Positions 41,601 to 61,833 of a DNA stretch of 64,000 nucleotides are shown here, in pieces. The DNA comes from Owenia fusiformis (Eukaryota; Annelida; Polychaeta; Sabellida; Oweniidae), in the NCBI GenBank assembly GCA_903813345.2, contig CAIIXF020000008.1:6209341-6273340 (forward strand), in the 5' to 3' direction. Position numbers and translations under genes: made by a program. Position 1 is the first letter of the stretch; each line of letters starts with the position of its first letter. Under the pieces are notes generated by a model, which searched no databases, was not told the origin of the DNA, and worked only from the letters and a program-made list of their open reading frames with translations.

Positions 41601-44600
41601 TAAATAAGAACGAAACGTCTAAACGCAGCAAAAAGAAAAATTCTTCTGCAATCTGTTCGTGATCTCGTAGAATATCGAGAAGTCTCGGCTGCTTATTTCG
41701 TTCAGTACTACATTCCGTCAGTTCAACAAATTGAAAAATCGTATTTAATGTCCACCATATTTCTTTCCAGTTTAAATACAACACAGACACGTCAGTTTTA
41801 TAAAGTAATCTACGTTTTGATAACAAATCTGCTGAACAAATCGTAATATTTGGAATGTATTGATTCCCGGGAAATGTATTTTCGTTCCATGAAAGTTTAA
41901 AAATTATCGCGTCACACTCGTGTTACGTCACATCACGTGACTTTATTCGGTGCGGAGAACTGACGAAATATTGACGAAATGTTGTGCCCATTTCAACATC
42001 AATATAACAAACAAAACACCACATTTACGCGTAAGTTATGTTCTCTTTATTTCAAATAAATACTTGGGTTTATATGGTACCCGATGTTTTGGTTGGATGG
42101 CTAATAGGGAATGAATAATAAGTGATGATTCAGCAGTGTGTTTTTTCCGTAGTAAATACCCCCTTTTTTGCATTGGACCTTGTCTGGCCCTAGATCTACG
42201 ACAATTCAGAATCGGGAGTAGATTACTGGGCCAGACGGGTTTGGTTAGGGAAATAGATGCCTTACTTTAACTATGGCAACTGTACGTTGGCAGATACAGC
42301 TTCCAAAGATCGAGAGAAATATGCAAGATAAAAAATAGGGATAAGTAGTACAATGTAGATTTTCTATATCGATTTTATGAAGCTACATCTACAGTACACT
42401 AGCCATTGAGCAAATGTGACTGGGGCTATAGAAATGAAATCTGATTTATGCATGTACAATAGATGTCCTACCTGTAGTTTTCCCCACAGCTTGCATTTAT
42501 CACAGCCGACACAGTCCATAATCTTGGTGATGTTACGGAACTTGGTTTTGTAGGCAGTCTATCAAAAAAAAATTATATTTTTTTTTCAAAGTAGAGGTAT
42601 TCTGAATATCTATTTAAGTGGTTATATAAAAAAAAAACTCGATCAATTTTAAAATACTTGAATTGGTGATATGATTGATATGTGTATTCTAATTTATCCC
42701 AACGTACAGACCCTATTTATCGTACCCAGAGGTTTTGTACAGTACACTATACTCTGATTAGGACTGGCTATTAATGTACAGCTTGACATTCTACCAATCA
42801 GCACACAACAAAGCCATGCTTATGTGTCAACTTATTTAAACAAACATGGTAATGAAAGTGGGTGGGAAATGGCAGGCTCTGATTGGCTCGATATATGCAG
42901 CCATTTATTGCTCATCCAAAGAGTGTTAGACAGTTTCACGACTCTTGCAAAGGATTCTACCTACCTTTAGTTCAGCTGCCTCTTTTGGGTCACCTCTAAA
43001 CATCTTACTCTCATCAAAGTGTTCAGGGAATGATCTATAACCAAACACACAATAATCACGCCCGGTGATCGTGAATATGGGACGGAGGGGGGAGCAGGCA
43101 ATTTCTGCTAGGAAATTCAACAAATCTGGAAGATTTATTTTTTCAAGAAAAAGTTTACTATTGAATTGCTAAATGGATAGGCGCACGGTATGGTAGAATA
43201 TGTTAGGTTTTCTGGGATTTTTTCTGAAACGATACGCATCTAAGGTATGAGATCTATTAAAAAAGGCGCAAGGCCATCAACAGGCACAAATCAACGTTTT
43301 TGCTATAAATCAAGCAACAATGGACTACACGACCTGTAATAAATACTTGTAAGTGATGTTATCATAACTAAATTAATGTCATTGCTGAATTTATAAAATA
43401 AGTTTGCATACGTAAAATAAAAAATAATCGAAAATATTTAAAATGGGAAGGAGGGGGGGAGGGGACGGAGGGGGGGAGTAATAATTCTATAAAGTGAAAC
43501 AACTTCACACGAATTCTTGTATTTGAAAAATGAACTCATTAACTTAGTAAGAAACTGGATGATATACCCCTGGAGAGTGAAAAATGGGGACATTTGGAGT
43601 AAAAGGACTTAAAGTCGCGAAACATCTCTAATCATGTCTTATATACATATTGCTCCCCCCCTCCGTCCCCTCCCCCCCTCCGTCCCAAATTCATTATTTT
43701 CGATTATTTTTTATTTCACATATGGAAACTTATTTTATAAATTCAGCAATGACATTAATTTAGTTATGATAACATCACTTACAAGTATTTATTACAGGTC
43801 GTCCAGACCATTGTTGCTTGATTTATAGCAAAAACGTAGAATTGTGCCTGTTGATGGCCTTGCGCCTTTTTTAATAGATCTCATACCTTAGATGTGTATC
43901 GTTTCAGAAAAAATCCCAGAAAACCTAACATATTCTACCATACCGTGCGCCTATCCATTTAGCAATTCAATAGTAAACTTTTTCTTGAAAAAATAAATCT
44001 TCCAGATTTGTTGAATTTCCTAGCAGAAATTGCCTGCTCCCCCCCTCCGTCCCATATTCACGATCACCGGGTGTGATAATTATGACTTAAATATTTGCTC
44101 CTATACAAATTTTGAAACTGAACAGTATGTATTTTACCAACATTCACTTAAGTTGAATTCATAAACCCAAAGTTCCATTGACCAAATTTCATTCAAACAT
44201 GACCGCGCTCTTATTGAATTTCACAACCAATCAGACTGCAGTTAAGCCAATAATGAACATTCTCTATTTCTCCATACATGCATGACCTTGCTCTATTCAA
44301 TCATCCAGGTATCTATATATTGTGACGTCACATCTATTCATGGCAAAAATAACAGCAAGTTTGGTTATTTCATGGACCCCATTCCCGAATTCTCTGAACA
44401 ATGTTTTCAACTTTGTGTTTGAATCAGAATAAATAATGATAGGCCATTCAATATGGTGAAATTCTACACTCATTGGACAGAATGTCAGTACAAATGCACT
44501 CTCCTTCGGTTCGTGATTTGTTCGACATTCTGTCCAACTCATGTTAATTTCACCATATTGAATGGCCTGCCATTATTTATTCCTTAATTAACAAATGGGA

Positions 44601-47600
44601 TTCATGACTCATTCAAGATGCTGGCAAAATATATCTTAAAGTATCCAGAGTTAGTTTAAAACACACCCATGAGTAAAACTTACTTTACTACTTTTAAGAG
44701 ATCTTTTACTGCATTTTTTGTTTCTAAATCTCCTTCCTCGTTTCCTGTATAGAAATTTTCCTGGAAGAAATAAACATCTTTTTATGTTAAAGTTTCTTTA
44801 AGTGAGATAGAGTTCATTTTCTTTCATTTTGTACATTTTTGAGTACTCAAATAGTATATAAAAACTGATCATATTCTACAAAAACATTACACCGGACATC
44901 TTTTTACTGAAATTACCATTAAGACAAAGAGCTTCCAAAAAGACAACAAAAAGCAAAAATGTTTTAGCACACTGAAATTAGCTTAAACATATTTGTAACT
45001 GCATCTCATTTTAATTGAACTATCAAGCATAAATCTGGTGAATGCGTCATGGATTTTAGATACATTGGGCTAAAACGTTATGAAAAACCTCTTTATTATT
45101 CATGATCAAACAACATATCCTGTATTTAAATCATATTATATATAACACTATACCTGTTCTAAATATGGGGCAGCCTTAGCCAATGCCCTGAGCTCTATCA
45201 GGTATGTGAAATAGAGATTCCTCAAGTGTTGAGGCCCCTGCCCCCAAGTATTCTCAGGGGCAAAAAGCTTGTCAAACAGCTCAACATTGGGCCCCCATGT
45301 TACCTGACCAAACTGGCCTGCAATAGAAATGAGACAAAATAGTTTATACATTTTCAAGTTTTTAAACTTGATAAAATGTCAAAACTTTATTTCAGACACA
45401 AAAGTGTAACTTTTGTTACAAAAAACACCAAACCATGACTGTTGATCACAAAGAAATGGTGGCTATAGTAATGTTACCACTTTCTGGTGGTACCATGAAA
45501 AAGCTAGGTGAAGTTAATATAGACATTACCAGATGTTAATACTGAAAAATTGGCCATGAATCCACCAAGCATTTTTAAAAATTCATTACTTGAAACAACT
45601 GCATACTCTAAATTTGCCTTATTCCTGGCCTTTGAATGTACTTTCATTTCATCTTGTGCCAAATATGAATCAGTTAGGATTATTATCAAAGAATTCATCA
45701 GTTATGCAACTGTTTTACAAACATGCCGATTCATTGTACAGGGTGACAAAAAAACTGGAACCCACTTAAGTCTTAATAACTTCGTCAATTATGCATATTT
45801 AGTACATGTATAGTCAATTGGATGTATGACAAGATGTCAAAGTTTTAGCATTCTAGCTCAATTAGTCTCCAAACGAGGCACGATTAGATAATGTGCTCCA
45901 AATGTGCACCACGACGTTGGATGCAGAGCTGGATTCTTCTTGCAAAATTGTCAATGACCCGACTGCATTCATCTCTGTCTATCTCTCTAATTAATCTTCC
46001 AATGTTGAGTTTGAGGTCATCAATGGTCAGTGGACTATCTGTATACACATTATCCTTGAGATACCCCCACAGATAAAAATCTGGGGGGTTCAAATCAGGG
46101 GAGTGGGGGGGGGCAGATGTGGCAGGTATGGTGACTGATTAATCGATTACCAAAGTGAGCCTGAAGCCATCGAATGGACTCATTTGAGGTGTGGGGTGTG
46201 GCACCATCTTGTTGGAACCATTGCTGGTCCCTTCTCAAGTCACGTCGTCTACCCAGCGCTCTCCAAAACTTTTGAACGTTAGGGATGTACCGTTCTGAGT
46301 TGACTGTTGAGTTGTCTTGAGTTCTGACAGACCTCTCTCTCCCCGAATAGGTTGGTTTTCCATCACTTTTCTTCTTTGTTGGTTTTACAGTTCCTTCTGA
46401 ATCAAACTTCTGTACAAGCCTAAAGATCTGTGACTTGCAAGGAGCTCTTCTTGCCCTGTGATCTCTCATATAGGCAGTTTGTGTCCCTTTATAGGATTTT
46501 GTCTCAATATACTTTCTCACAATATAAGTCTTTTCTTCTGTCGTCCATGGCATGATTAATATCTAAGCTACAGAACTCATTATTGTGTCATTTTGTCATG
46601 CATTCAGTCTAGTTTCTACCCTGAAGAAATGAAGAATGTAGGTATAATACTTTCCGAGAAATTTGATGATTTATGGGTTCCAGTTTTTTTTGTCACCCTG
46701 TATTTGTCCTACCTTCGAATGCATATCTGGAGCAGACAGCTACCATCACAGAAGTGTGGAGGCCAGACAGCATGCGGAAAAACACCCTCTTCTCTAGACA
46801 TTGCTCTAAAATGATATATAACAATGCATGTGCTATGTGAATCACAATCAGGTTTAAGTTAAGTAGTTATCCATTGTTTGTATGCCATGTGTATGTGAAA
46901 TAATCTGATACCAAATGCCAAGAAATTTTTTCTGATCCTCGTATCATTTTCTACATTTGCAAAAGCAAGACAGCTCAAACCCCATTGCAACCCCTTAAAA
47001 GCGGGCAATTCAACTCATCCCCCAGTTAACTAAAAGAATGGTGTAGTCCAAATAAAGATGTTATTTTGCATTTTATGGTAAAGTATAGCAAAGTATTAAT
47101 GAATGAAGAAAATTGAAGAAAACACATTTCTATGCAACCCTCTTATAAAAATTTCAGTTGGAAATGAACATCTAGTATAGATCTAATACGAGACATTTAC
47201 TAAACAAAATAATTAACATGAAAAAATCCATGGAAAACCCATGACAAAGTCGAATAAAATGTGCTAAATACCATAATAAAAATACTACATACTATATAAG
47301 AAACACCACGATGAAAAACAAAAACCCTACACCATAGATGTAAAATCTGGATAAAAGAGGGAAAGGGGAAGGATGTAACCTGATTTATAAAATAATTTTA
47401 TGATATGATTACACTGATACAAATTACATATGGTCTGAGACTGATATAATATTAACAGATCCATCTAGAGCAAATACTAATCTGGCAAAGGCCACATCAA
47501 CAATTCATTCTGAGGAAATGAGCTAAAAATGACCCCAAAACAATATTCAATGAACAATATATAAATATATAAAATTACAGTAATGGGGGTACATTGTGTT

Positions 47601-50600
47601 ATTTTACAACATATGAAATTTACAATAGATTTACATTGATTGTATATAGCGACTATACTTAAGAATTATTACGTTTCTCTTGTGTGGCTAGAATAGTACA
47701 AGAAAACAAAACAAATTGAAATATATAGAACATTTGGGAACTTCATGGAACAGATAATGTGGAAAATTCAAGGAATTAAATGTAGAGACCTTATTCACAA
47801 TGCTATACAATAAAAATAAGTTTTTTCAAATACAACAAATCATTTTTTACAAATATTTTTGGTATCAATTTTGTAAGTTCTGCACCCTGACATCATCCAT
47901 TCTTTCTTTCTTTCTTTCTTTCTTTCTAAAGGATGTTGTCTGGTGCCCTGAATTCGGAAGATGCATACACGACCAACTTTAATAAGCCACGGTGAAAAGT
48001 GGCGGTTACATTTACCTAAGCATTGTGAATGAGCTCACTGAACACAGGAGTAGAGTAATTTATGGCACTGTCTCTATAAATATAACTACAAGTATGAATG
48101 CCACTAAATTCAAACGGTCAGAATAAAAATTAAAATGAACCCAGGGATGTTTAGAAATAAAGTAATTTATATATAGGCAGTATAAAAAAAATTTTCATTT
48201 AATATTTATAACTAATTAGGCTTAAAATAATTAAATAATTAAAAAATGAAATCAACAAACATCGAATGTTACCTCCGGCAGGGTAATCTAAGGGGCATCA
48301 CAATTATTTAAATAAAAAAATATGATACAGTAATCGTACACAAGGCATACATGCAAAGTGTCACCACCTGCCATTTGTTACAGACAGTAACTGCCAAACG
48401 CTGAACATTAACCACTAATCACAAAAAAGTTGGAGACTAAAACAATATGTCACCACTATGTGTCACCAATATGTGGTGGTGACATAAAAATTGATTGAAA
48501 AACTGAATAAAAATTCCATTATATTCAGCATGTTAGTCTTGCATTTATCCCTGGTCTTAAGCCAACCTAACTTTCCCTTGGACCAATGAATCACCAGGGT
48601 AAAGGGGGAAAACCCAGTGACAAAATGCAAGACTATCATAATGATATACACTTTCAGTAAAGGTCCTATGATACAATATCTAACAATTTTATATGTGCAT
48701 CGCAATATTAAATTGATATGATACATTTTAAAAATGTTCACATTAACCAAGCCAAAAATATGGATACTGTGAAGTACCCTGCGTGCAGAGTCTAGTTATA
48801 AACTAGGAAGCTCTCTTTTAAGAAGCTAAGTTGAACGAATGCAAAGGGTAACTGTGAAGTGTCATGGGACCCCTAATAACAGGATCAGAAATTAAAGCAA
48901 CTACAATGTATGCTAAATTACTTGCTTATTATATAATATAAGTTTGAATTCCATGCCTAACGCACATGTTTAACTACTGAAAATTGCTACATGCCCAAAA
49001 CAAAGGTATTGCCACTATAACAAACTCAGTATTGGAACATATTCATTTAAAAAATATTAAGAGGATACAGATCATTCTTTATGCATCAATCTCAGTGGAA
49101 ATGCAGTCTTTTGCATGACATTCATAATTTCAAATACATGTACATATTGATCAAAAAAGATATTTTGATACAATACAATTCAAAAGAAGTCTTACACAAA
49201 GCCTCAAAACATTCAACTTGATCCAGCTGATTTTTAAATGTCCAGTCACACAAATCACCCATGTTTCAGAACTGTGCGCTAGACTAATAAATAAAAATCC
49301 TAATGAAAATTCTGTGACATATATTCTAATCACATCAATTAACTTAATGTAACTTAAAAACACAAAGTACCACCATCGCCAAAAAAATCAACCTCAAATA
49401 ACAAGATTAATTGTTTTGATATCAATCATATTTATGTGCTACATTTTATGTGCTTCATGAAATAAGTGCTTCGGTGGTTATCGATAAACTGGTTCCTACC
49501 TTGCTTGCCAAATTGCGAGTAGTCCTTGCTTTCCTGTCTGAAACAACAAGAATTCTCAATGTCATTGGTAATGGGGAGATATGGCCTGAATCAGGGGTTT
49601 CATTAGCAGAAGGCAACAGGCGATTTGCACGGGTTGTTTTCGCATAATCGCCTGTTGTTTTGAGTGACTTTTCAACTTTTCCATATCAAATTCATGATTT
49701 CTATTAATTTTGCCTGTTGTTTTCATTTATTTATTATCTTTAGTAGATATACCACATTGACTGATAAAAAGCATCATTTCATTTATCACGATAGATATAG
49801 CATCCTCTGAGGTTTCATATAAATGCTCCTGAACATATCATGACTTTGACATTTAGGTGTCGGCAATTGCTATCATTGGATTGTTTAAATGTGTAGTACT
49901 TTGCTGAACAAAGCTATGCATTAATTAAAGTGGAACAGTCCTGCATTACTGTATAAGTGGTAATTTTGCCTTATCATTTTATTAACCTATTGCCTGATTT
50001 TTTGCCAGGTTCGGAAAATTAAATGTCGGAAATATTATCTTCATTATGTTATCCAATGGGAAGTTTCTTGTCATTAGGAAAATTAAAATTAGGAAAGTGA
50101 TAAAATTTGACCATTCGGCAATTAACCACTCGGATTAAATACCACTTATACAGTAGTTAAAAATCAATCCTGAATCCATTGGCTCACATGTAAATAAAAT
50201 AATCTTAAGACTTACTTGAAACAGTTTTCACTATAGATGGTTTTCCATATTCTTGATGCTGACTTGCCCTTGTATCCAGTATAGCCCTCTGGGTTAAGAG
50301 AAAGATCTACATATTCTGCATCAGCCGAGTCTTCATCTAAACACACAAAAGAAATATGAGTGAAGTGTCACAGCACAGCCATACATGACAGCCTCAGGAT
50401 TAAGTGCATTAATCTAAATATTTTACCTCTTGTTAGTTATTACATTAATAATATTATATAGAACCTAATAGCTCTTTCTTAGTAAACTTCTTGCACTCGC
50501 ATTCATGGCATAATACAATCCCCCATGTATACTCGATTGTTTAATTCCATGGGATGATTCAGTGCCTTTGGACACTCTGTTGTAACACCTAGGTATAATA

Positions 50601-53600
50601 ATAACCCCAACTTATTTGTTTAAATAATGACTGCCTCGCACAACCCTTTGGTACTAAAGTACACTTGGTACAACCCTTTGGTATAATACAACTCCCCTGC
50701 ACTGTATACACTTGGCACAACCTTTTGGTATAATACAAAACCTATCTCACCATCTATCTCACAGAAGAGCTCTTCTTGGTCATCATATCTCTTCCACTCA
50801 GCAAATGCCTCCTTACTCTCATCACTGCAAATAGAGAATAACATATTAAAGAGGCTCTATGCCATAGGATAGCACAATTGTCTGGGGGAGAAACCTATGG
50901 CATAATGCATCTTTAAAGGATCTTTAGAAGGGCTATAGTAGGAAGATGTTGGACACAATCTTTTCAAAAATCAAGCAATGGTTTCACTTACAATTGTAAC
51001 TTTCTTTTCTAAAAAGAAATTGGGATATCTGGTCAAATATAGAAGTCATTGAACTGTAGATCTAAGATGCTGATTCTGAAATCCCCAAATTTATTGGATT
51101 CGAAAAAGACAGACCTAAAAAACTAGGGATTAAATATCGCTTGTCACTCTTCTAATTTGGAACTTTTCATTTGAGTCTGTAATTTTTGGTCAAAATCTTA
51201 AATTATAATTTTCTGGGTATTTTTACCTGATTGTTGTATCCAGGTTCCCCAGTTCATGTTCCTCTTCACATTCATTTTGCTCATTGGCCTCCTTACTGTA
51301 CTGTAACACAAAAATATATATACAGGGTGGGCCAAAACATGTTACTCTTTTTATAGTAGAATACAATCTGAATTTGTAACATTTTTTGCACACCCTGTAT
51401 TATACATAATAGAAATGCATAAAGTCATATTAGATTTTCATCTGTGTTTTTTATTTAGAGCATTTCCTGATTTCTTAACTCAAAACACACCTTCCCAAAA
51501 AAGAATAAAAAAGGAGTAGAAAGAATATTCAATTATTATGCTGAGATTTTTAATGTTTGAAATGCTGTAGGTACAAATGAATTTGTGCCTAGTGAAATCA
51601 ATTTGATGAAAATATACATATACAGGTACCCGCATGAGTTGCATTGATACCCTGAAAATGTTGATTTTTAGTCTGTATAGTTTACAGTAAATCAGTTCTC
51701 CTCTCATTTTGAGTAATGAAATATAAAATATTCATAATGGACCAATAATAGTCTTGCATCAGGTCTCTGGATCCCCACCCACATTAACCCCCCCCCCTCT
51801 TGTGCAGGTGAGAGGGAACAGGGCTTGAAGCAAGACTACTTGGCTTGTATTCACCAAATGAATCCAACAATAATATTTAACCTCAACAATGTTATCTCAA
51901 TAAATTTAATTATTATCAAAATAAATTCTATCACCCATGGTTTGATTGAGAAAACTGGCATTTTATCACACAGTAATTCTTGAATTCTGAAACTTATGCA
52001 GCAACTATCTTATTATACATGTATACTCTACACATATTATTTAATACCTGTATTTTTGCAACTACACTTCTGTTTAATCACCAATGAAAGCCATTCTACA
52101 TTTCTACAGTTTAATATTTTGTTGTCATAGTGATATTTATACTTACACAACCCATACTATAACCATACTACCAAAGTAATCTACAGGAGACTATTTCTTG
52201 AACAATCGTATTTTATGATTAATTTTCATTATGTAATGCATGTAATATATTTACACGAATCTCTAAACAATGATATGTTCAAGAAATCGCCTTTATATAG
52301 TCTAGTGAGCATACATCAAAACCTGTGTGTAAACCAGATGTGAACAGAACTTTTTTGACACATTTTATTTCTTTTGAAACAAATTGAAATCATGAATTTT
52401 GTTGAAATCTTATGTTAAAACATAATTACCCAATCAGTGTTCACAAATACAGGTTTGTCTGTATCAAATAGAATACATTGATCACAACTGCAAAATGGAA
52501 CTGTGTGTGTTGATGATATTACTGCCAAATAAAGAATTGGTATATTTCTCCAATTTTATTCCTTTATTGGCGTTATTTAGTCTCACAGAGAATTGCATCG
52601 TGTTTATGATCAGAGTATTCAGTAGGGGAACCAGGATTCTCAAGTGTCAAAAAGTAGTTTCTATGACCCATCCAAAAAGAACTCACATATTATATACCAC
52701 ATTAAAGCTGATTAAGATCTTCCCTTCATAAGTCTCATACAAGGATTGCTGTAGCCATGGCAACCAAAGCAACAACATTAAGGATACTTAAGCAAACAGA
52801 TTCTGGACAGCAGGATTATTGATATGACTATTGGATGGAAATTTGTTAAACATCTAACAGTATACCGATCACGGAAGGTGAACCCCAACTATCCCAAACC
52901 ATAATATAACAAGAAAAGAAACATTTTCATACACATATTTTGACCTTCATTCCAAATGGGCTTAGAAATTGTAAATGAAAATATTACAAAATTGCCATAA
53001 ATACTTGGTACATATCATATGAATTGTTTTACAGCTTTTAAAAATTTGTATTGAAAAATGCTATTGATTTATATACAGTTTATAAAAATGTAAATATATG
53101 CATGTGAAATGTGAATACAAATTACCATTATTCTGCTTGAAACTATTAACAGATTGAATTAAATCAAAGGATGTATTTGTTCTACTTAGAAATACTTCCA
53201 TACCATAGGATAACTGTATATAATCAATGTGAATATGACAATATGATATAAGGATGTGAGTGATGTATGTATCCGTTCTGACAACATGACATTGATATAT
53301 ATGAATGATACATGTATCAATTATGACAAAAAGTATGACATGAAGATTTATTATGCAGATATCCATTCCTATGACACATAAAAACTGTCTAATGGAATAA
53401 CTTTCTGTAAAGAACACCTGTTTACAGGGAATAGTGTTTGAAAGAACCAACTATTATCCATTTATCGACATGATAATGGACTCTCTCTACAAGGAACACC
53501 TGATGACTGGGAACACGGAACAGTGTTTTTGGGCAAATTTGAAAATTCACATTTGCTACATTGTATATCCTATTGTTTTCAAGACTAATGAAGTGTAGAA

Positions 53601-56600
53601 TGAAATCTGACAAACTAAGCTTTAATTTGGTATATGATTTGTGACTTCTTATTACGTGAGTCAAAGAATCCACTTCTTAAGCCCCATGGCTCCCCTACTA
53701 TTCTATTGTTTCATACCTTGGAGTGGTTTTCAGATCCGTGGAATCCATTAGGGATTTCAGCCTATATACAGATAGAGTAGAGCATGGTTACAACACATCT
53801 AAGTAAAATTTTATGGCCCATTTATTTGTTGGACCTTCATCAATTATGATTCATATTTGGTCAATAATGGCTTGCTATGTATGAATAAGATAATTTTCCC
53901 ATTTGCTAAAAACAGACCCGGCTTCACCAAAGTTGTTGTTTAGTTGATAATTTTGTGCAGATTTGGATGTACATGTATACATCTTTTTTATTCCCTTTAT
54001 CAATGCATCACACAAAATTCCCTAATAAACCCCTGATTACATACAAGAATGTTTGACCAAATATTCCTCATTTATTGATGGTATACATGCATGATTGTAT
54101 CCCCCATTACCTTATGGTTCTGTTTATGGTTTTTATCATGGTTCTCTGAATGGTTAGGTCGACCTTTTAAACCTTCTGGAATCTCATCCTAAAAACAGTC
54201 TTCATCATGTCACATAGTGCACATTAAGGTAGGACAAGTATGTTAAATTTGAGTCATGTTATACAATAACACGCTGATAAATAGCTCTACACAGCCTACC
54301 TTAAAGTGCTTATAATGGTTTCATGAAAAATTGATACACTGATATTAAGAAATAATAAATATGAATATAAAGGACTTAGTTTCTTTTAAGTTTGTCATTA
54401 AAGGATGAATTTGGTATATCACAAAGTTTGCCTTATAAACATATTTTAACCTAAACACGGGAAAACAATTATTCATATAATAATCATACTCAGTTTCTAA
54501 TTTATCTAGAATACTCATAAAATTGACATTAATCTTATATGGAAATAAAATTAAAAAAAGCGTGGATTCCTACAATTGAGAACTGTTGTAAAGATGTATA
54601 GACATCAGTAAAAGAGTCAAATACCAAATGAGTATTAAATTATAGTTGAACATGACTGTATTGTCATGTTTATGTGAACAGCACAGCTGTGCATTAAGTG
54701 TAAGGGACATTTATTACCAAGCAATTCTACCTTGTGTGTAATTATATTTACCTCAGGATCTGAATTGAATTTGTTATTAATACCATATCTATGGCATATA
54801 GCTCAGGCATTACAGGCTGAGCTTGAGTTATTAAATTCAGAAGTTTTACATTGTACATTTCAATTTGGAATATTCATTTCATTTACTGGTTCATTTTTTT
54901 CAAATAAAATAGTTGATCATTCATAAAACATTTGTTATATTATGAATCCAATGCAAATAAATAAAAGAGATAATAAAGGATCCAATATGAAACAGTTATA
55001 TACGACTCAGAAAGACACAAATCTTATCGTTCAATAATACAATGCAATCTTGGAATAACTAATACCCCAGGGTGAACAGCAGCTTAAGAATCAAGTTTTA
55101 GCCCTGGATAACCTTTCTCAATTTAAAAAAAAAAGAACCAAAGGTTGATATACTACATGTATATAGAATTATCAAAGATATAACAAGATTCTGTCTGGGC
55201 TACTATAGAGAATCGTCAAAAATATAACACAATTCTGTCTGGGCTACTATATAGAATACCCAGAGATATAACATGATTCTATCTGGGCTACTGTATAGAA
55301 TAGCCAGAGATATAACAAGATTCTGTCTGGGCTACTATATAGAATATCCAGAGATATAACATAATTCTATCTGGGCTACTATATAGAATACCCAGAGATG
55401 TAACATAATTATGTCTGGGCTACTATAGAGAATAGCCAGAGATATAACATAATTATGTCTGGGCTACTGTATAGAATACCCAGAGATGTAACATAATTAT
55501 GTCTGGGCTACTATAGAGAATAGCCAGAGATATAACATAATTCTGACTGGGCTACTGTATAGAATAGCCAGAGATATAACAAGATTCTGTCTGGGCTACT
55601 ATATAGAATATCCAGAGATATAACATAATTCTATCTGGGCTACTATAGAATACCCAGAGATGTAACATAATTATGTCTGGGCTACTATAGAGAATAGCCA
55701 GAGATATAACATAATTATGTCTGGGCTACTGTATAGAATACCCAGAGATGTAACATAATTATGTCTGGGCTACTATAGAGAATAGCCAGAGATATAACAT
55801 AATTCTGACTGGGCTACTATATAGAATACCAGAGATATAACAAGATTCTGTCTGGGCTACTATATAGAATATCCAGAGATATAACATAATTCTATCTGGG
55901 CTACTATATAGAATACCCAGAGATGTAACATAATTATGTCTGGGCTACTATAGAGAATAGCCAGAGATATAACATAATTATGTCTGGGCTACTGTATAGA
56001 ATACCCAGAGATGTAACATAATTATGTCTGGGCTACTATAGAGAATAGCCAGAGATATAACATAATTATGTCTGGGCTACTGTATAGAATACCGAGAAAT
56101 GTATTAACTTACATCACTGCAAGGTTTGAGGACACAATCTCTTGAGGCACACCTACTGTCATCTACCCAGAATGGACATTGCCGCTTCACATTCGCCTGA
56201 AATAATTCACATAATTCATCATCCAGAATTCCCATTGGCTGGATGTACTGCCCTTTGAATTTATATAATACTCTTCAGTTTTGACGCTGATAAGATCTTC
56301 ACAATCTCAAATGTACCTTTTTATGGCGTTTGGTAGAATCTGAATAAAAAATAATGATGGCTACTTATAGGCAGAATATGTAGTGTTACTTTTCAACATG
56401 GTAACAATTTAAAAATGGTAACAAGTTTAAGGCAGAGCCAAGCTGAAAGTACAGACTTTATATTTGCCAGGATCTCTATTATTAATGAATCCATAATAAC
56501 ATATATAGCATTTGCTTTACATGTTTGACATGTCAGCTGTACATACAATATATTCACAAGATTACTTTTACAGAAATTGAATTAAGACTTAAACCATAAG

Positions 56601-59600
56601 TCTGGTTTATAAATGCCCTTAGGATCATGTACAATATGTATATGTACATTGTATTGTGTTGTACATATATTTGTATATATATAGGCAGTAAATGTGCATC
56701 AACCAATTATATACATAGAGGATATCCTATGATTTATGAGTGATATGATTTTTATCCACGAATGGATATGATATCTGCACGAGCGAGCGTAGCGAGAGAG
56801 TGCAGATATCAATATCCATGAGTGGATTAAAATCATATCACGAGTAAATCATAGGATGTTCTTTTTATTCCATAGTTCATGTAGTTAGATTCATCATCAG
56901 AATCGTCGGAAATTAAGTTATTTAATTCGAATTTCCAAACGATCCGGCGATGTTGACACTTAGCCTCGTTTTGAGTCTGAAGTAGCAAAAATCCATAAAC
57001 CATCGCATACGACGTCGTATGTCATGGCTAAAAATTTATTTATTTATTTATTTTGCCAATGTATCTTCTTACATGATATTGATTGCTTCCATAACCTCAA
57101 TATGTCAATTGGACAACTGTTGCAATTAATACTATAACTAAATGTGACCTCAGATAATGTTAATTGGGTCAATTAAGGTCTGTTACATGTGTCTAGTAAT
57201 ATTAATGATAAATACTATTACAAATTATCTTGTTAAATAGTGTAAATTCAGTTAAACAATAATAGTTCTTGTTCAAATGTACATGTATAGTGTACCTTAA
57301 ACAAAAAGAAATTGATGTATTTACATGATTTATCATGAACTAATGAAAGTTGATATTAGATATAATTTTCAGGCAAAACAGTTCAATTATTATTGCCACT
57401 CCAGAAATGTCAATAATATATCCACAAATGAACAGAAATATAAAATCTTGAAAACTTACCTTATGGTATTTGAAGTAGTCTGTCCTAAGGAGGCTTTGAA
57501 GACGTGGGTATATTTTGTTATTATTGAACGAGTCTACAGATTCGACACTACACGAACAATCATCTACTTCCCCTTGCAACTGCAAATAATTTGAATATGT
57601 TGGGTATATCATGACACACACTATATATATCCAACCTTGCATTTTCATAATCAGTTCTTCAAACACAAATAATCCAATAGGTATATGAAAAGAGAATATC
57701 CATATTCAGGTCTACAGGCAATTCTGTGTATTAGCAGTCACCGAGGATGTTATCAAGTCATGACATTTAAGTATGTTTATAAATAATATGCCTGTTACGT
57801 GTGTGTTTTATATAAACTAAGTTTCAGTGACACAAATCATTGGTAATAGATATATAAATTGTAGCATATGTTCTTCTCTTTCTAACATTATGAGAACAGA
57901 CAGATTTTTTAAAGCTTGCTTCCTATTGTCATTCAGTTTACTGTTAATAGACAGTCTTTATTTCAGTTTAATGTTAATAGACAGCCTTCATCTCTTTTCT
58001 ATTTATAATTGTTAATGCATTAAATAAAATCCCACTCCGGATTAAGACAAGTAATTGATGTATATTGCATATAAAAATGTAATGTTATTTGGCCATATCC
58101 CAATGTTCAAAAATAAAATAATTAACTCGTATATAAGTGATTCTATTTCCCTTTAAAGATGAATTTAACACTTATTGATTATGATTCGAATAACACAAAT
58201 ATTATTAGAATCCGTGCAAAGATGATACATGTAAATACAATTAAAATGTTGTATTGATTAGTCGAAGAGTGCAATGTTTTTAAAACCAAGAGAACACAAG
58301 TCTAATTGCTTTAGGAGCCAATTATTTATTTTCTCTGTTATTTTTGTTATCTGACTAATGGATTGTTCATTGTGAAGGTTTGAAATTCCCATCAGTATGA
58401 TAGTAAGTTATACTTTTAACTGGGCCCTCTGTTGCATTGTGCATTGGTACAATCGGATGCTATCAAAACTTTACAAAATCTTTCAAAGTTTGTTTTGGGA
58501 TTTTACCTTAATTTTATCAAAAACCAAATAGCACAATAATGTTGAAAAAACATGCCAGTAAATTGGAAAAGCAAATAGTTCGCAGTGATCTACAGAAGTT
58601 AGTGATATGAAAAAGCATGACTGAATCAATTGTGATTATTATATTGGAAGCGTTCGTATTAATTCATTAATGTGCAAAACATTGATTAGAACATGGGCTT
58701 TCAACAGAAAGATGGAGACTGTATATGAAATTAGTTACTTCTTTTGAAGAAATTGTAACTGGAGCATATGCTCGGGAACAAAAAAATCTGAGTTCCCTTA
58801 GAAAAAAGATAAGGTGGACATCGAGAAACAGATAATATGAAGAAGTCCAAAGTTTGATCATGAACTTTGCTAAGATTTTCGCTTATCAGTGTGTTTTATC
58901 TGATTTTAAAGGAAGATAAGGAGTAAAGAGAAACTTAAAGGATGAATGGTCACTGAAATGTGAATATGCTCACTATTTCATTGCATTATTTAGGACCATC
59001 AGATAATGTTTCTTATTTGTGTCATGGAAAATCTTGAACTTCCAGTTTGTGACCAAATTGAATGGCTTGTGAATGTGAATATTTTCGAAACAAATGTGTG
59101 ATTTATACACATATTTTGTACCAAATGCGTGACATAAACGGCAACCACGTGCAAAGACAGAATGGAATGCGTTCGCTTTTTTCGCCGTTCCGTATTTTAC
59201 CATATCGGCATTTCACAAAAAACTATTTTTAAAAATTTCAACAAAATGCGTGATTTGCATGATAGTTGATCATACACGCTTAATTGATGCGTGATTTCTA
59301 TTTTTCCAGCAAATGTGTGACAATCACGCCTAATGCGTGAGGGTTGACAGGGCAGTGATTGGTAACAAAAAAAACTGAAAATGAGTGAAATGAACTGAAA
59401 TGCAACAAGAAATTTTTGGCCGATGTCTACTAATTTTTTTCTTTGGGGAAGAACACTCCATTTTTATACATGTTCCTGGGCTTATGGGCTAAATTACAAT
59501 ACCCCCATAAGTATGGGGCTCAGGCCCGTAGCCAGGATTTGCCAAGGGGGGGTTCAGTTTTCAAAAAATCCCAGGGGGGGTTCACATTTGACAATTTTGG

Positions 59601-61833
59601 CCCAAATATGGCTAAAATCACTTGAAAAGTGCACAAAATGGTGAAAAACTGCATGATTTTGAAAGAATTTTTAGCCAGGGGGGGGGTTCGCCCGAACCCT
59701 GCGAACCCCCCCTGGCTACGGGCCTGGGGCTACTGAAAAATCAACCCCACATTTATGGGGGTAAATTACAAGGGATTAACAAGCTAACCTTGCCCAAGTC
59801 GGTATTTTTTTTACTTAACTGATCTTGAATTATTACCACCTTGTACAATCTAATGAATCCCCGCTGATATTATAATAAGTTATTCAGCGGTTTCTAGATT
59901 TCTATAATTCCTTCACTGTCAGGGGTATCTCGAAACTGTATTGGTAGGCAAGATCGTGTGAACACGACATGTGACTTCAGGCTGATTGACCAATCACAAC
60001 GTTGTCAGGTTTACCCGCTTTAACAAAGTAAACTATCTGTCTACGACTTGAAATTTTTCAATGATCTGATCCCGGGATCTCATGGAGTATTTCTTCACAG
60101 TTACAATATATAATGTATAATAATTTCAAATTTCTTCGGAAATGGTTAGGAGTCCCTAAGTCATTTAGTGCAGTCAACCTTTATAGCACTTCATCTCCAG
60201 CCGCAATCCCCACCTCCTCCATAGTCGAAGAGTTTAAGGTGACAAAAGTACGAACAGCAATGCTTCTTAGAGATTCAAAAGATCCAACAGCTAGATCAAC
60301 GGAAGCGACAACATCAAGAACGAGGAAATGGTCTGCCCAGACAGCAATCATCAATGCAGAAGGCAGACTCAGGCAGAGCGATATTGTAGGAACAGTTGCA
60401 GAAAGACGAAGAGGACTTGGGAGTTATGGGAGAGTCCCATGGTCAAAAGCAGACGCAAGAGAGAAAAGGAAGATGGTCACTTGTGAAATAAGGAAATCTG
60501 AGGAAGAGGCAAGATTAGCCAAGGCCACTGGAATGGCCAAGCAGGGGGCATGGCTCAACTGGGAGGCAGTAGAGGGCAGAAGGCTAACTGGGAAAGATCT
60601 GTTACAGACATCTGAGACATCTCTAGCCTTTCTCCTTAATCACTCAGTGACACACTTCCCACACCATGTAATCTTTCATTGTGGGGTATGATCGACGACC
60701 CGATGTGTACTCTTTGCAAAGATCAGCCTGCTTCTCTAAAGCATATCCTGAGCTCATGTAATGTTGCACTGGGAGAACACCGCTACACTTGGAGGCATGA
60801 CCAGGTTCTGAGAGAAATAGTCAGACAAATAGACAACATTATTACTTGCAAAGCCAGCCCACAAGTAAAGGAGACAGCACAATGGACGTCTTTCCTAAGA
60901 GAAGGTCAGAGTAAAGGACCTAAACAACAGAAGCGAATCAAGTTACCAGGAATCCTTCAGACTGCAACTGACTGGAAAATCGGAGTTGATTTGAGCAAGA
61001 AGTTAGTATTCCCCCAAGAGATAGCTACCACCACAATAAGACCAGATATTGTCATTACATCAGACAACAGGAGGTGTGTTATCTTAGTAGATCTAACTGT
61101 CCCATGGGAGGAAAGGATGGAGATTTCCCACGAGATAAAACAATCAAAATATGAGGATATCATCACAGAGGCAACGCAGAATGGTTGGAAAGCCCACAGC
61201 TTTTTCTCATGTAGTCTTGATTGTTCTGAATCTCAACCTAGATCTAGCTATCATGTTGGATCAGCGCTTTTCATCTTGATCTTTTCAACGTTTATTGTTG
61301 AAATCTTCTCACCTCTGGGTATCCGATCAGTGCTCCATCATCCACTAAACTCTGATTGATATGTATTTTCATGATGAATTGTGCAAGATTTGTTCGGGAA
61401 AAGTGTACTTGTTTTGACCGTGCATAATAATGAGCTAATACTGCATGGTCATCGTTGATTGGTCAAACCATGGTCTTTCAATTAGCTAGTTGAAGGCCCA
61501 TGGTCAAATTTACCTACATAAACATTGGGTCGGTAAAGCATGTGGCTTTCTCATTGGTACAAGGTGGTCATAATAGAAATCAAAATAAGTAAAAGAGACC
61601 AAATTGGGCAAGGCTACTAGCAAGCAAGATACTAGAGTAAAGGCCATGATTTAGTTATATCATCAATATATTCCAGATTCGGAAGATATTTTATTTTGAG
61701 TGGAATAAATAATTTCAGCATAACAAACCTTGCAAAAACACTGGTCTCCTTCGCCATCATTGAACTGGAGATGAACTTGTGGTATAAAAATCGACATCAG
61801 TAGCACACAAATGGGTTTTGCGTGGATCTTCAT
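29632..61833 (-). CDS. ERO1: ERO1-like endoplasmic reticulum thiol oxidase, complete, 16 exons
   Basis: Exons (minus strand): 61833-61729, 57579-57460, 56196-56113, 54188-54111, 53761-53717, 51300-51227, 50824-50751, 50336-50216, 49537-49500, 46805-46713, 45317-45154, 44760-44684, 43034-42965, 42558-42472, 30247-30108 and 29710-29632. They sum to 1449 bp (482 aa plus stop); all junctions keep frame. ERO1 is an FAD flavoenzyme in the ER lumen that oxidises protein disulfide isomerase and passes electrons to O2. Seen here: signal peptide (1 to about 22); shuttle pair Cys91/Cys96 (CASRDC); regulatory cysteine counterparts Cys101 and Cys155; YTGYKG and SGLHTS, the FAD-site region; inner active site CVGCDKC (Cys400/Cys403) followed by [18 protein letters not shown] near the C terminus. 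N390 is a potential glycosylation site. Human ERO1A is 468 aa; the extra length comes from the loop made by exons 4-5. Intron 14 (12.2 kb) hosts a GPCR gene. Confidence 0.96.
31215..31312. repeat. Hairpin repeat with 20-bp perfect arms
   Basis: TGACCTGAATCGATTGCAAA near 31217 pairs with TTTGCAATCGATTCAGGTCA near 31291. It is about 95 bp in all, in ERO1 intron 14. Confidence 0.78.
31669..32695. mobile_element. Foldback MITE copy 1 (CACG-ended, 5-bp duplication ATACT)
   Basis: About 430-bp inverted arms (31669 to about 32098, and about 32271-32695) flank a loop of about 170 bp. Ends are CACGCCCGGTGATC at left and its near-complement at right. ATACT directly flanks both sides (31664-31668 and 32696-32700). 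The inner ends of the arms carry G/C-runs with GGGACGGAGG motifs. It has no coding capacity. It lies in ERO1 intron 14. Confidence 0.9.
32911..33318. mobile_element. Second foldback MITE family (CACGCGG ends, duplication ATATT)
   Basis: A 408-bp inverted-repeat element: the left end CACGCGGACCTAACTTCGAC matches the complement of the right end with one change. ATATT occurs on both sides (32906-32910 and 33319-33323). The arms extend through a Leu/Phe-rich stretch to a central palindrome around CCCCAGCTG. It is separate in sequence from the 1.02-kb family but shares CACG termini and the 5-bp ATANT target. Confidence 0.88.
34326..34570. repeat. Two adjoining palindromes downstream of the GPCR gene
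   Basis: TTGAATGATTTCAAGTGCAA at about 34330 pairs with TTGCACTTCAAATCATTCAA at about 34433. ATTGCTACTGAGATTGTC at about 34481 pairs with GACAATCTCAGTAGCAAT at about 34546. It looks like a nested or composite foldback element. Confidence 0.75.
34822..36012 (-). CDS. Intronless rhodopsin-like (class A) GPCR, orphan, melatonin/opsin-like
   Basis: A single open frame of 396 codons, nested on the same strand inside ERO1 intron 14. Seven hydrophobic segments are visible. Landmarks: GN with Asn58 (1.50); SVSDLA with Asp86 (2.50); Cys113 and Cys191 for the extracellular disulfide; NRY (137-139) replacing DRY at the end of TM3; Trp165 in TM4; CWAP (268-271) in TM6; NPLIY (304-308) in TM7; Cys325 as a possible palmitoylation site. 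N16 and N189 are possible glycosylation sites. NRY plus CWAP recall melatonin receptors, while the second extracellular loop (GWGDYHYEP, then SCTLDW) recalls opsins. The opsin retinal lysine position in TM7 is Ile298, so it should not bind retinal as opsins do. The ligand is unknown. Translation may start at Met1 or at Met12. Absence of introns suggests retroposition or ancestral single-exon structure. Confidence 0.93.
   Translation of the reverse strand: MGIVSIQHTNKMLLANSTISTELWTRQNDADVSEFSLTERIILCVIHVIVTVLGTIGNLIVIASMTTKAQRNKAQNYFIISLSVSDLAVTAICVPINIAAMCYNGPVLGDILCDIQAFVIDTSCCVSLFSITMVAINRYVRIVHPALYPRLYDTKVCKVIVVVTWVTAGLLLTPPLAGWGDYHYEPRNFSCTLDWVYDYSYSIFVSVMAIVWAEVTICACYVRIVQVVRKSHRTITHYDGGKYNQSVLTEDKRLAFQLLFVFLLFNICWAPYLILSLFVEPNYNVDSLTYAICSFLIIMNSACNPLIYFFMNRRLRQAAIKLLTCHRRSPVLEDHGVAMVMPHRHPIFHHTDLDNHLDNVPSHCCGSHGNTNHHDNINHQQELVILSVNGASSENK
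36013..41004. other. ERO1 intron 14, portion upstream of the GPCR
   Basis: Five kilobases of AT-rich sequence without a recognised exon. The first kilobase upstream of 36012 should contain the GPCR promoter and any 5' UTR. No clear TATA or initiator could be assigned. Confidence 0.6.
41005..41135. mobile_element. Truncated, inverted copy of the GTAGCC-ended MITE family
   Basis: The interior (TTTTTCACCATTCTGAGCAC, GTGAACCCCC) and one end (GCTACGGGCCTG) of the family are present; the other end is missing. It lies in ERO1 intron 14. Confidence 0.65.
41376..42247. mobile_element. Mutator-like (MULE) non-autonomous foldback element with 9-bp duplication
   Basis: Inverted ends TAACCAAACCCGTCTGGCCC, extending about 100 bp with mismatches (through a GCATTGGA...GTATTTAC segment to CACACTG). 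A perfect 9-bp direct repeat GGGAAATAG flanks it (41367-41375 and 42248-42256). The 872-bp element has no recognisable transposase. A 9-bp duplication with long terminal inverted repeats is typical of Mutator-like elements. It lies in ERO1 intron 14, 225 bp from exon 14. Confidence 0.85.
42472..42558 (-). other. ERO1: ERO1 exon 14: catalytic CxxCxxC exon
   Basis: This 29-codon phase-0 exon carries [20 protein letters not shown]. Its second and third cysteines correspond to the FAD-proximal active-site disulfide of ERO1 enzymes. The acceptor is a T-rich tract ending in TAG and the donor is GTAGGA. It lies 225 bp from a Mutator-like foldback in the following intron, and is separated from exon 15 by about 12 kb that includes the nested GPCR. 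Confidence 0.96.
43057..44075. mobile_element. Foldback MITE copy 2, same family (5-bp duplication ATAAT)
   Basis: Closely similar to the element at 31669-32695 along its whole length and in the same orientation of the central loop. Ends are CACGCCCGGTGATC and GATCACCGGGTGTG. ATAAT flanks both sides (43052-43056 and 44076-44080). It sits in ERO1 intron 12 with only 22 bp between it and exon 13, so it supplies most of that intron's acceptor environment. Confidence 0.92.
44424..44583. repeat. 160-bp foldback element
   Basis: GAATAAATAATGATAGGCCA at left pairs with TGGCCTGCCATTATTTATTC at right; the arms continue through ATTCAATATGGTGAAATT and GGACAGAATGTC. It lies in ERO1 intron 12, 100 bp from exon 12. 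The flanking duplication is unclear. Confidence 0.8.
45739..46700 (-). mobile_element. Mariner-like DNA transposon, internally deleted and frameshifted
   Basis: Terminal inverted repeats begin CAGGGTGACAAAAAAACTGG at both ends and are flanked by TA (45737-45738 and 46701-46702). The transposase remnant runs on the minus strand. 46553-46095 encodes an N-terminal helix-turn-helix ([16 protein letters not shown]) and, after an apparent deletion near SVRTQDN/NSERY, the second catalytic block [12 protein letters not shown]. 46093-45884 continues in another frame with [16 protein letters not shown]. The two halves are separated by a frameshift at a C-run (about 46107-46115). The first catalytic Asp appears to be lost with the deletion. 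It lies in ERO1 intron 10, 10 bp past the exon 10 donor. Confidence 0.9.
47900..47936. repeat. (TTTC)n microsatellite
   Basis: About seven tetranucleotide TTTC repeats in ERO1 intron 9. A second short array, (TGAAT)4-5, is at 13559-13582 in a FEZ intron. Confidence 0.95.
48355..48483. repeat. Inverted copy of the GGCAGGTGGTG repeat
   Basis: Reads GTGTCACCACCTGCCATTTG, then CACAAAAAAGTTGGAGACTA and ATGTCACCAC, the complement of 25928-26060. It lies in ERO1 intron 9. Confidence 0.7.
51323..51397. mobile_element. TA-flanked mini-element with CAGGGTG ends, 75 bp
   Basis: The left end CAGGGTGGGCCAAAA and the right CACCCTG are inverted, inner ends TGTTAC/GTAACA pair, and TA flanks both sides. It begins 22 bp from the acceptor of ERO1 exon 6, so it overlaps the expected branch-point zone of that intron. 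Confidence 0.8.
51398..53716. other. ERO1 intron 5, no gene recognised
   Basis: AT-rich; contains fragments of the GTGAACACC repeat (about 53405-53515) and scattered open frames without protein character. Confidence 0.6.
53717..54188 (-). other. ERO1: ERO1 exons 4 and 5: probable tandem exon duplication in the regulatory loop
   Basis: Exon 4 (54188-54111, 26 codons) begins DEIPEGLKG and ends with a four-fold 12-bp repeat encoding [15 protein letters not shown]. Exon 5 (53761-53717, 15 codons) begins AEIPNGFHG and ends SENHSK. Both match the single DEVPDGIKS segment of human ERO1A. Both are phase 0 at each end and multiples of three, so either could be skipped without a frameshift. With both included, 53 residues separate Cys101 and Cys155, against 26 between the human counterparts Cys104 and Cys131. 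Reading this as alternative or duplicated exons is inference; the splice sites and frames are seen. Confidence 0.8.
55160..56110. repeat. 44-bp minisatellite, about 21 copies, abutting an ERO1 splice donor
   Basis: The unit reads CTACTATATAGAATATCCAG, AGATATAACATAATTCTATC, TGGG, with 88-bp two-unit variants (ATGTAACATAATTATG alternating with ATATAACATAATT). The last degenerate unit runs into the donor of ERO1 exon 3 (exon ends at 56113). It lies in ERO1 intron 3. Confidence 0.95.
56722..56862. repeat. 140-bp foldback element with GAGCGAGCG core
   Basis: ATCCTATGATTTATGAGTGA and its complement at the right pair, as do GATATCTGCAC and GTGCAGATATC. The centre reads GAGCGAGCGTAGCGAGAG. It lies in ERO1 intron 2. 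Confidence 0.82.
57580..59084. other. ERO1 intron 1, 3' part, no gene recognised
   Basis: AT-rich DNA between exon 2 and the ATGCGTGA cluster. No repeat with clear borders was seen. Confidence 0.6.
59085..59345. repeat. Cluster of ATGCGTGA / TCACGC motifs
   Basis: AAATGYGTGA recurs at about 59093, 59125, 59245, 59288 and 59315, with ATCACGCCTAATGCGTGAGG at 59324. The inverted TCACGC makes short hairpins. It is probably a degenerate dispersed repeat in ERO1 intron 1. Confidence 0.5.
59521..59726. mobile_element. Short MITE with CAGGCCCGTAGCC ends; best copy of a dispersed family
   Basis: The ends CAGGCCCGTAGCCAGG and CCTGGCTACGGGCCTG are perfect inverted repeats, and GGGCT flanks both sides. 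The interior is rich in G-runs and GTTCACA/GGTTCG motifs. Related, more degraded copies are at about 5560-5775 (globin intron 3), 22845-23010 and 41005-41135. It lies in ERO1 intron 1. Confidence 0.8.
60113..61290 (+). mobile_element. Degenerate non-LTR-type retrotransposon fragment with restriction-like endonuclease motif
   Basis: Two overlapping frames (60113-60691 and 60679-61359) belong to one former protein broken by a frameshift near 60660-60685. The first half holds a basic region ([21 protein letters not shown]) and [15 protein letters not shown]. The second has CTLC...HILSSC (C-x2-C-x7-H-x4-C), then [19 protein letters not shown] and RPDIVI followed by [10 protein letters not shown]. 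The last two motifs resemble the PD-(D/E)XK endonuclease at the C terminus of R2/NeSL/Hero-like elements (family knowledge; assignment is inference). The reverse-transcriptase core is absent, and the similarity fades after about 61215. It is antisense to ERO1 within its intron 1. Confidence 0.7.

Follow-up and report, generated by a model that had tools for sequence, protein, structure and literature searches.

A Probable Old Tandem Exon Duplication in the Redox-Regulatory Loop of an ERO1 Gene from Owenia fusiformis

Introduction

Published work describes ERO1 feedback as governed by cysteine switches in the protein itself; in human ERO1A, the C94–C131 and C99–C104 pairs block the shuttle cysteines (PMC3971451, PMC4243250, PMC6238587). 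A 64,000-nucleotide stretch of Owenia fusiformis DNA (hereafter, the window) encodes an ERO1 in which two similar exons, 4 and 5, lie within this regulatory loop. The locus raises the question of whether the loop segment was duplicated and, if so, how the two copies are used. An earlier note on this DNA had proposed that the two exons are individually skippable, giving four loop lengths by which alternative splicing could tune ERO1 shut-off.

An ancient, maintained duplication of this kind would represent a naturally occurring example of how exon duplication can alter a redox switch. Were its copies spliced differently, they would add a second layer of control on oxidation in the ER.

Results and Discussion

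Gene structure and identity

The ERO1 gene occupies the minus strand, where 14 exons (61833 to 42472) together form a single frame of 410 codons with zero stops (Table 1). This reading spans a signal-peptide-like start through to the inner active site; a search with short motifs did not find the last exon or exons 3′ of that site. The shuttle pair C91/C96 aligned with human C94/C99, and the inner active site CVGCDKC (C397/C400/C403) aligned with human CVGCFKC. Equivalents of human C104 and C131 are present by alignment as C101 and C155, for which regulatory pairing is predicted. The shuttle, regulatory, and inner active-site cysteines follow the same order as in human ERO1A and ERO1B (PF04137).

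The protein version containing exon 5 but lacking exon 4 gave a near full-length alignment with human ERO1A (PDB 3ahq; E = 1.2e-110). Over exons 1–8, the four possible splice versions scored 128.2 to 136.1 bits with PF04137, above the family cut-off of 27 bits. A PF04137 search of the 498-Mb genome yielded four matches, every one an exon of this same gene. ERO1 is here an ordinary single-copy gene. With the genome matches confined to it, no ERO1 retrocopy that could reveal splicing was seen. No relatives were confirmed in bacterial and viral collections, as expected of a eukaryotic gene.

Table 1. Positions in the window of the ERO1 exons and of the intron between the two loop copies
Feature	Position in window	Strand	Remarks
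Exon 1	61729..61833	-	Start codon, signal-peptide-like stretch, first cysteines; start picked by frame
Exon 2	57460..57579	-	Phase 0-0; alignment to human ERO1A
Exon 3	56113..56196	-	Shuttle cysteines C91 and C96, plus C101 (human C94, C99, C104)
Exon 4, loop copy 1	54111..54188	-	78 nt, 26 codons; sequon N115; AACCAT four times
Intron between exons 4 and 5	53762..54110	-	349 nt
Exon 5, loop copy 2	53717..53761	-	45 nt, 15 codons; sequon N141
Exon 6	51227..51300	-	C155 (human C131) and remainder of loop
Exons 7-14	42472..50824	-	Exon 14 ends past inner active site C400/C403
Exons 7-10	50824-50751, 50336-50216, 49537-49500, 46805-46713	-	
Exons 11-14	45317-45154, 44760-44684, 43034-42965, 42558-42472	-	

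A probable old duplication with both copies coding

Exons 4 and 5 are both in phase 0-0 with AG/GT borders, and the whole of exon 5 aligned without gaps to codons 1–15 of exon 4, from the first codon on. Eight of the 15 residues are identical (E, I, P, G, G, N, H, and S), and the third base differs in seven of these eight codons. By simple counting of sites and differences, pS was 0.88 and pN 0.33, a ratio that is rough because 15 codons are few. Third positions account for 12 of the 20 base differences between the exons (P = 0.0009 under random placing).

To gauge how unusual this likeness is, residues 1–15 of exon 4 were compared with all 127,912 15-mers from the six frames of the window. 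Apart from the query itself, only exon 5 reached 8/15, with the next best two at 6/15; at codon positions 1 and 2, exon 5 equals exon 4 at 22 of 30 bases, and the next best of the 127,912 places at 18. When 200,000 random 15-mers were generated with the composition of this protein, all fell short of eight matches. With exon 5 as the query, the next best 15-mer in the window scored 7/15 and contains two stops (52107, minus strand). In the raw DNA, 25 of 45 bases agree, a count equalled or passed elsewhere in the window (26 at one place), and the local DNA alignment score of the two exons was reached by 75 of 1000 shuffles. The signal of likeness between exons 4 and 5 is confined to the protein, as an old duplication would leave it.

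When exon 4 was omitted, exon 5 aligned to the stretch of human ERO1A (PDB 3ahq) that follows residue 104; when exon 5 was omitted, the beginning of exon 4 aligned to this same stretch. The two thus display the features by which tandem duplicated exons are recognized, being adjacent, sharing a phase, and encoding homologous protein sequence. The earlier note's pair of similar exons, each starting with EIPxGxxG, is borne out by the 8/15 identity, the pS and pN values, and this shared human segment; its coordinates, phase 0, and lengths in multiples of three (78 and 45 nt, with AG/GT borders) were confirmed as well. Since the proteins are alike while the silent sites are randomized, the duplication appears to be old and under selection on the protein, by which both copies of the loop exon have apparently been kept.

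The flanking introns were also compared with shuffled sequence, scores as high being reached by 460 of 1000 shuffles upstream and 977 of 1000 downstream. Among five intron comparisons, the strongest paired intron 4 with the beginning of intron 5, and 4 of 200 shuffles scored as high. Because the flanking introns bear no recognizable likeness, the ends of the duplicated piece are invisible.

Several other origins were considered. A recent duplication was ruled out by the saturated synonymous sites, the chance-level DNA likeness, and the unlike flanking introns. An origin from a mobile repeat was rejected, as each exon with its flanks matched only itself genome-wide in a search that skips very common words. 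Regarding a possible third copy of the exon, the pattern E[IVL]PxG occurs at four six-frame places in the window, and between exons 3 and 6 only at exons 4 and 5. The 7/15 match at 52107 (minus strand), located in intron 5, was taken as chance on account of its two stops and because 216 of the 127,912 places match exon 5 equally well at the DNA level.

Alternatively, one copy may have fallen out of use, or a doubled segment within one exon may later have been split by an intron. One genome alone cannot separate either history from duplication of a whole exon, and the lack of homology between the flanking introns is compatible with both. However, both exons have an open frame, are bounded by splice sites, and show constraint on the protein, and the match to exon 4 takes in the whole of exon 5 from the first codon; we regard these histories as very improbable. 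An old tandem duplication in which both copies still code is, in our judgment, very likely.

Contents of the two copies

Both exons encode EIPxGxxG together with an N-H-S glycosylation sequon, at N115 in exon 4 and N141 in exon 5, and the H and S codons of these sequons carry silent changes between the copies. Elsewhere in the 410 residues there is one sequon, N390. The loop would accordingly hold two sequons with both exons, one with either alone, and none with neither. Exon 4 exceeds exon 5 by 11 codons at its 3′ end. Read from the letters, it contains a unit starting with AACCAT four times at 12-nt spacing (NHxx), a repeat that was not reported by Tandem Repeats Finder. Growth of the repeat looks later than the duplication, given that its AACCAT units are still identical.

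Loop length and the regulatory cysteines

The spliced protein and the human alignment agree with the earlier note in placing both exons in the regulatory loop between the shuttle cysteines and C155, and the cysteines (C91, C96, C101, and C155) and loop lengths that it listed were right in every number. Between C101 and C155 lie 53 residues with both exons, 38 without exon 5, 27 without exon 4, and 12 without both. The regulatory cysteines of human ERO1B are 29 residues apart, as derived from the cysteine numbers in PMC3971451, and 26 residues separate C104 and C131 in human ERO1A, making the exon-5-only loop the version nearest the human lengths. The loops of human ERO1A and ERO1B have an E-[IV]-P-x-G motif in common with the loop described here. 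In contrast to the single motif segment of human ERO1A, however, there are two copies here, and the two loop sequons constitute another difference from the human proteins.

How strongly might these lengths affect the switch? With ideal-chain scaling, the closing tendency of C91–C155 relative to human would be 0.44 with both exons, 0.66 with exon 4 only, 0.96 with exon 5 only, and 2.04 with neither, corresponding to a change of about twofold between Cys–Cys spacings of 64 and 38 residues and about fivefold between the extremes. On this model, loop length alone would be a mild handle on shut-off. Glycans next to the shuttle pair, of which there may be two at most, could have a larger effect than length.

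Use of the two exons

Double inclusion is not barred by frame, spacing, or visibly odd splice sites, as 78 and 45 nt keep the frame, the intervening intron measures 349 nt, and the AG/GT sites lack a U12 look. By our own reading of these sites, exons 4 and 5 give no sign of belonging to the U12 type. We propose that a small phase-0 exon, which encodes the EIPxGxxG portion of the flexible regulatory loop, underwent an ancient tandem duplication and that both copies would have remained coding, under selection on the protein, with exon 4 then growing at its 3′ end through the 12-nt repeat. If both exons are usually spliced in, the C101–C155 distance would be 53 residues compared with 26 in human ERO1A. 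Regulatory pairing of C91 with C155 and of C96 with C101 would be retained, with C155 placed on an extended tether that may bear as many as two N-glycans next to the shuttle cysteines. The enzyme would keep its redox shut-off at a somewhat altered threshold. The gene would then encode a duplicated, lengthened regulatory loop with both exons probably usually included. Taken together, an old duplication, two coding copies, and usual inclusion of both form a reading that we hold as evenly balanced between right and wrong. Pfam scores speak against usual double inclusion, in that the single-copy forms fit PF04137 slightly better (136.1 bits with exon 5 only and 132.1 with exon 4 only, versus 130.5 with both and 128.2 with neither). 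The nearness of the exon-5-only loop to the human lengths likewise suggests that inclusion of a single copy could be usual.

In the splicing proposal of the earlier note, one or both exons are regulated cassettes, and loops of 53, 38, 27, or 12 residues could tune ERO1 shut-off. Exons 4 and 5 are symmetric and short, every combination is in frame, and the count of sequons in the loop changes with the exons chosen (2, 1, 1, or 0). Symmetry nevertheless says little about skipping, since phase symmetry is shared by six of the 13 exons for which an acceptor was identified (2, 3, 4, 5, and 14 are 0-0; 10 is 1-1) and skipping exon 2 or 3 would remove core parts. The donors are not distinctive either: scored with a matrix, those of exons 4 and 5 reached 2.7 and 3.1 bits in a gene range of 0.54 to 7.64, and three of the other 12 donors were lower. 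An effect of length alone is also predicted to be mild. Invertebrate precedents exist in the molluscan Ero1 isoforms of Conus, Aplysia, and Biomphalaria (PMC6275033), in which, as here, a flexible regulatory loop may vary in size. Their small indels lie in another loop, between Cys208 and Cys241, unlike the equivalent of Cys104–Cys131 seen here, and the forms listed in that source are said to differ only in the former. For human ERO1B, a known exon-skipping variant is described as truncating the frame (PMC9479353). We consider regulated cassettes possible but doubtful.

Still more elaborately, exons 4 and 5 may act as splice-selected glycan-and-length cassettes, offering zero, one, or two glycans and four tether lengths for feedback set by tissue, with the histidines of exon 4 perhaps sensing zinc or pH. 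We think this unlikely; that histidines at four-residue spacing might sense zinc or pH is pure speculation.

Mutually exclusive use would place one copy in each transcript, providing one EIPxGxxG loop in two versions of 27 or 38 residues. Neighboring homologous exons of the same phase, as found here, are described among tandem duplicated and mutually exclusive exons (PMC9013439, PMC9741552, PMC5740500) and as the usual substrate of exclusive splicing (PMC9013439, PMC9741552). The pair also falls within published length rules for candidates, of at least 10 residues and a difference of at most 20 (PMC5740500), and both single-copy forms outscored the double and empty forms in Pfam. Both exons can be joined in frame, however, and exon 4 is 11 codons longer. 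Three mechanisms given in PMC5740500 are absent, in that the intron is 349 nt rather than below 50 nt, there is no sign of U12 sites, and each exon has a length divisible by three. Comparing the introns in either orientation yielded no strong match. The absent barriers do not exclude exclusive use, because many known pairs are described as lacking them too (PMC5740500). Overall, we judge mutually exclusive splicing to be quite unlikely.

Tandem exon duplication is a common event, and its location in the redox switch of ERO1 is new to us. Our literature search found no paper combining "Ero1" and "exon duplication".

Additional Observations

Several further features of the gene, window, and genome were recorded. 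At the exon 6/7 junction (51227/50824, minus strand), the Ser of S-D-E aligned to human S145 (S-E-E), with the S-x-E pattern kept; we take human S145 to be a Fam20C phosphorylation site. By alignment, C271 (exon at 46805-46713, minus strand) occupies the position of human ERO1A Ser263, the ERO1B-type Cys262 site. An ERO1B-type Cys262 is reported in Conus Ero1 too (PMC6275033).

The second regulatory loop (human C208–C241) looks short, with 16 residues between C232 and C249 versus 32 in the human protein, as judged from residue numbers. A 38-nt exon (49537-49500, minus strand) lies in this loop, and the next exon is at 46805-46713. The 2.7-kb intron may contain a small exon that escaped notice, since molluscan Ero1 forms are described as varying by indels in the second loop (PMC6275033).

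Intron 3 contains a minisatellite at window positions 55160-56091, with 21.2 copies of a 44-nt unit and 89% matches. The intron after exon 10 carries broken transposase-like frames (window ~46562-45887, minus strand), which presumably resemble mariner-type elements. A long open frame at window positions 36069-34825 (minus strand) has the look of a seven-helix receptor. Elsewhere in the genome, two features point toward an annelid: three Eryth_link_C matches were found at C6:27033687-27048438 (best E = 5.0e-7), and two near-identical long reading frames resemble mitochondrial creatine kinases.
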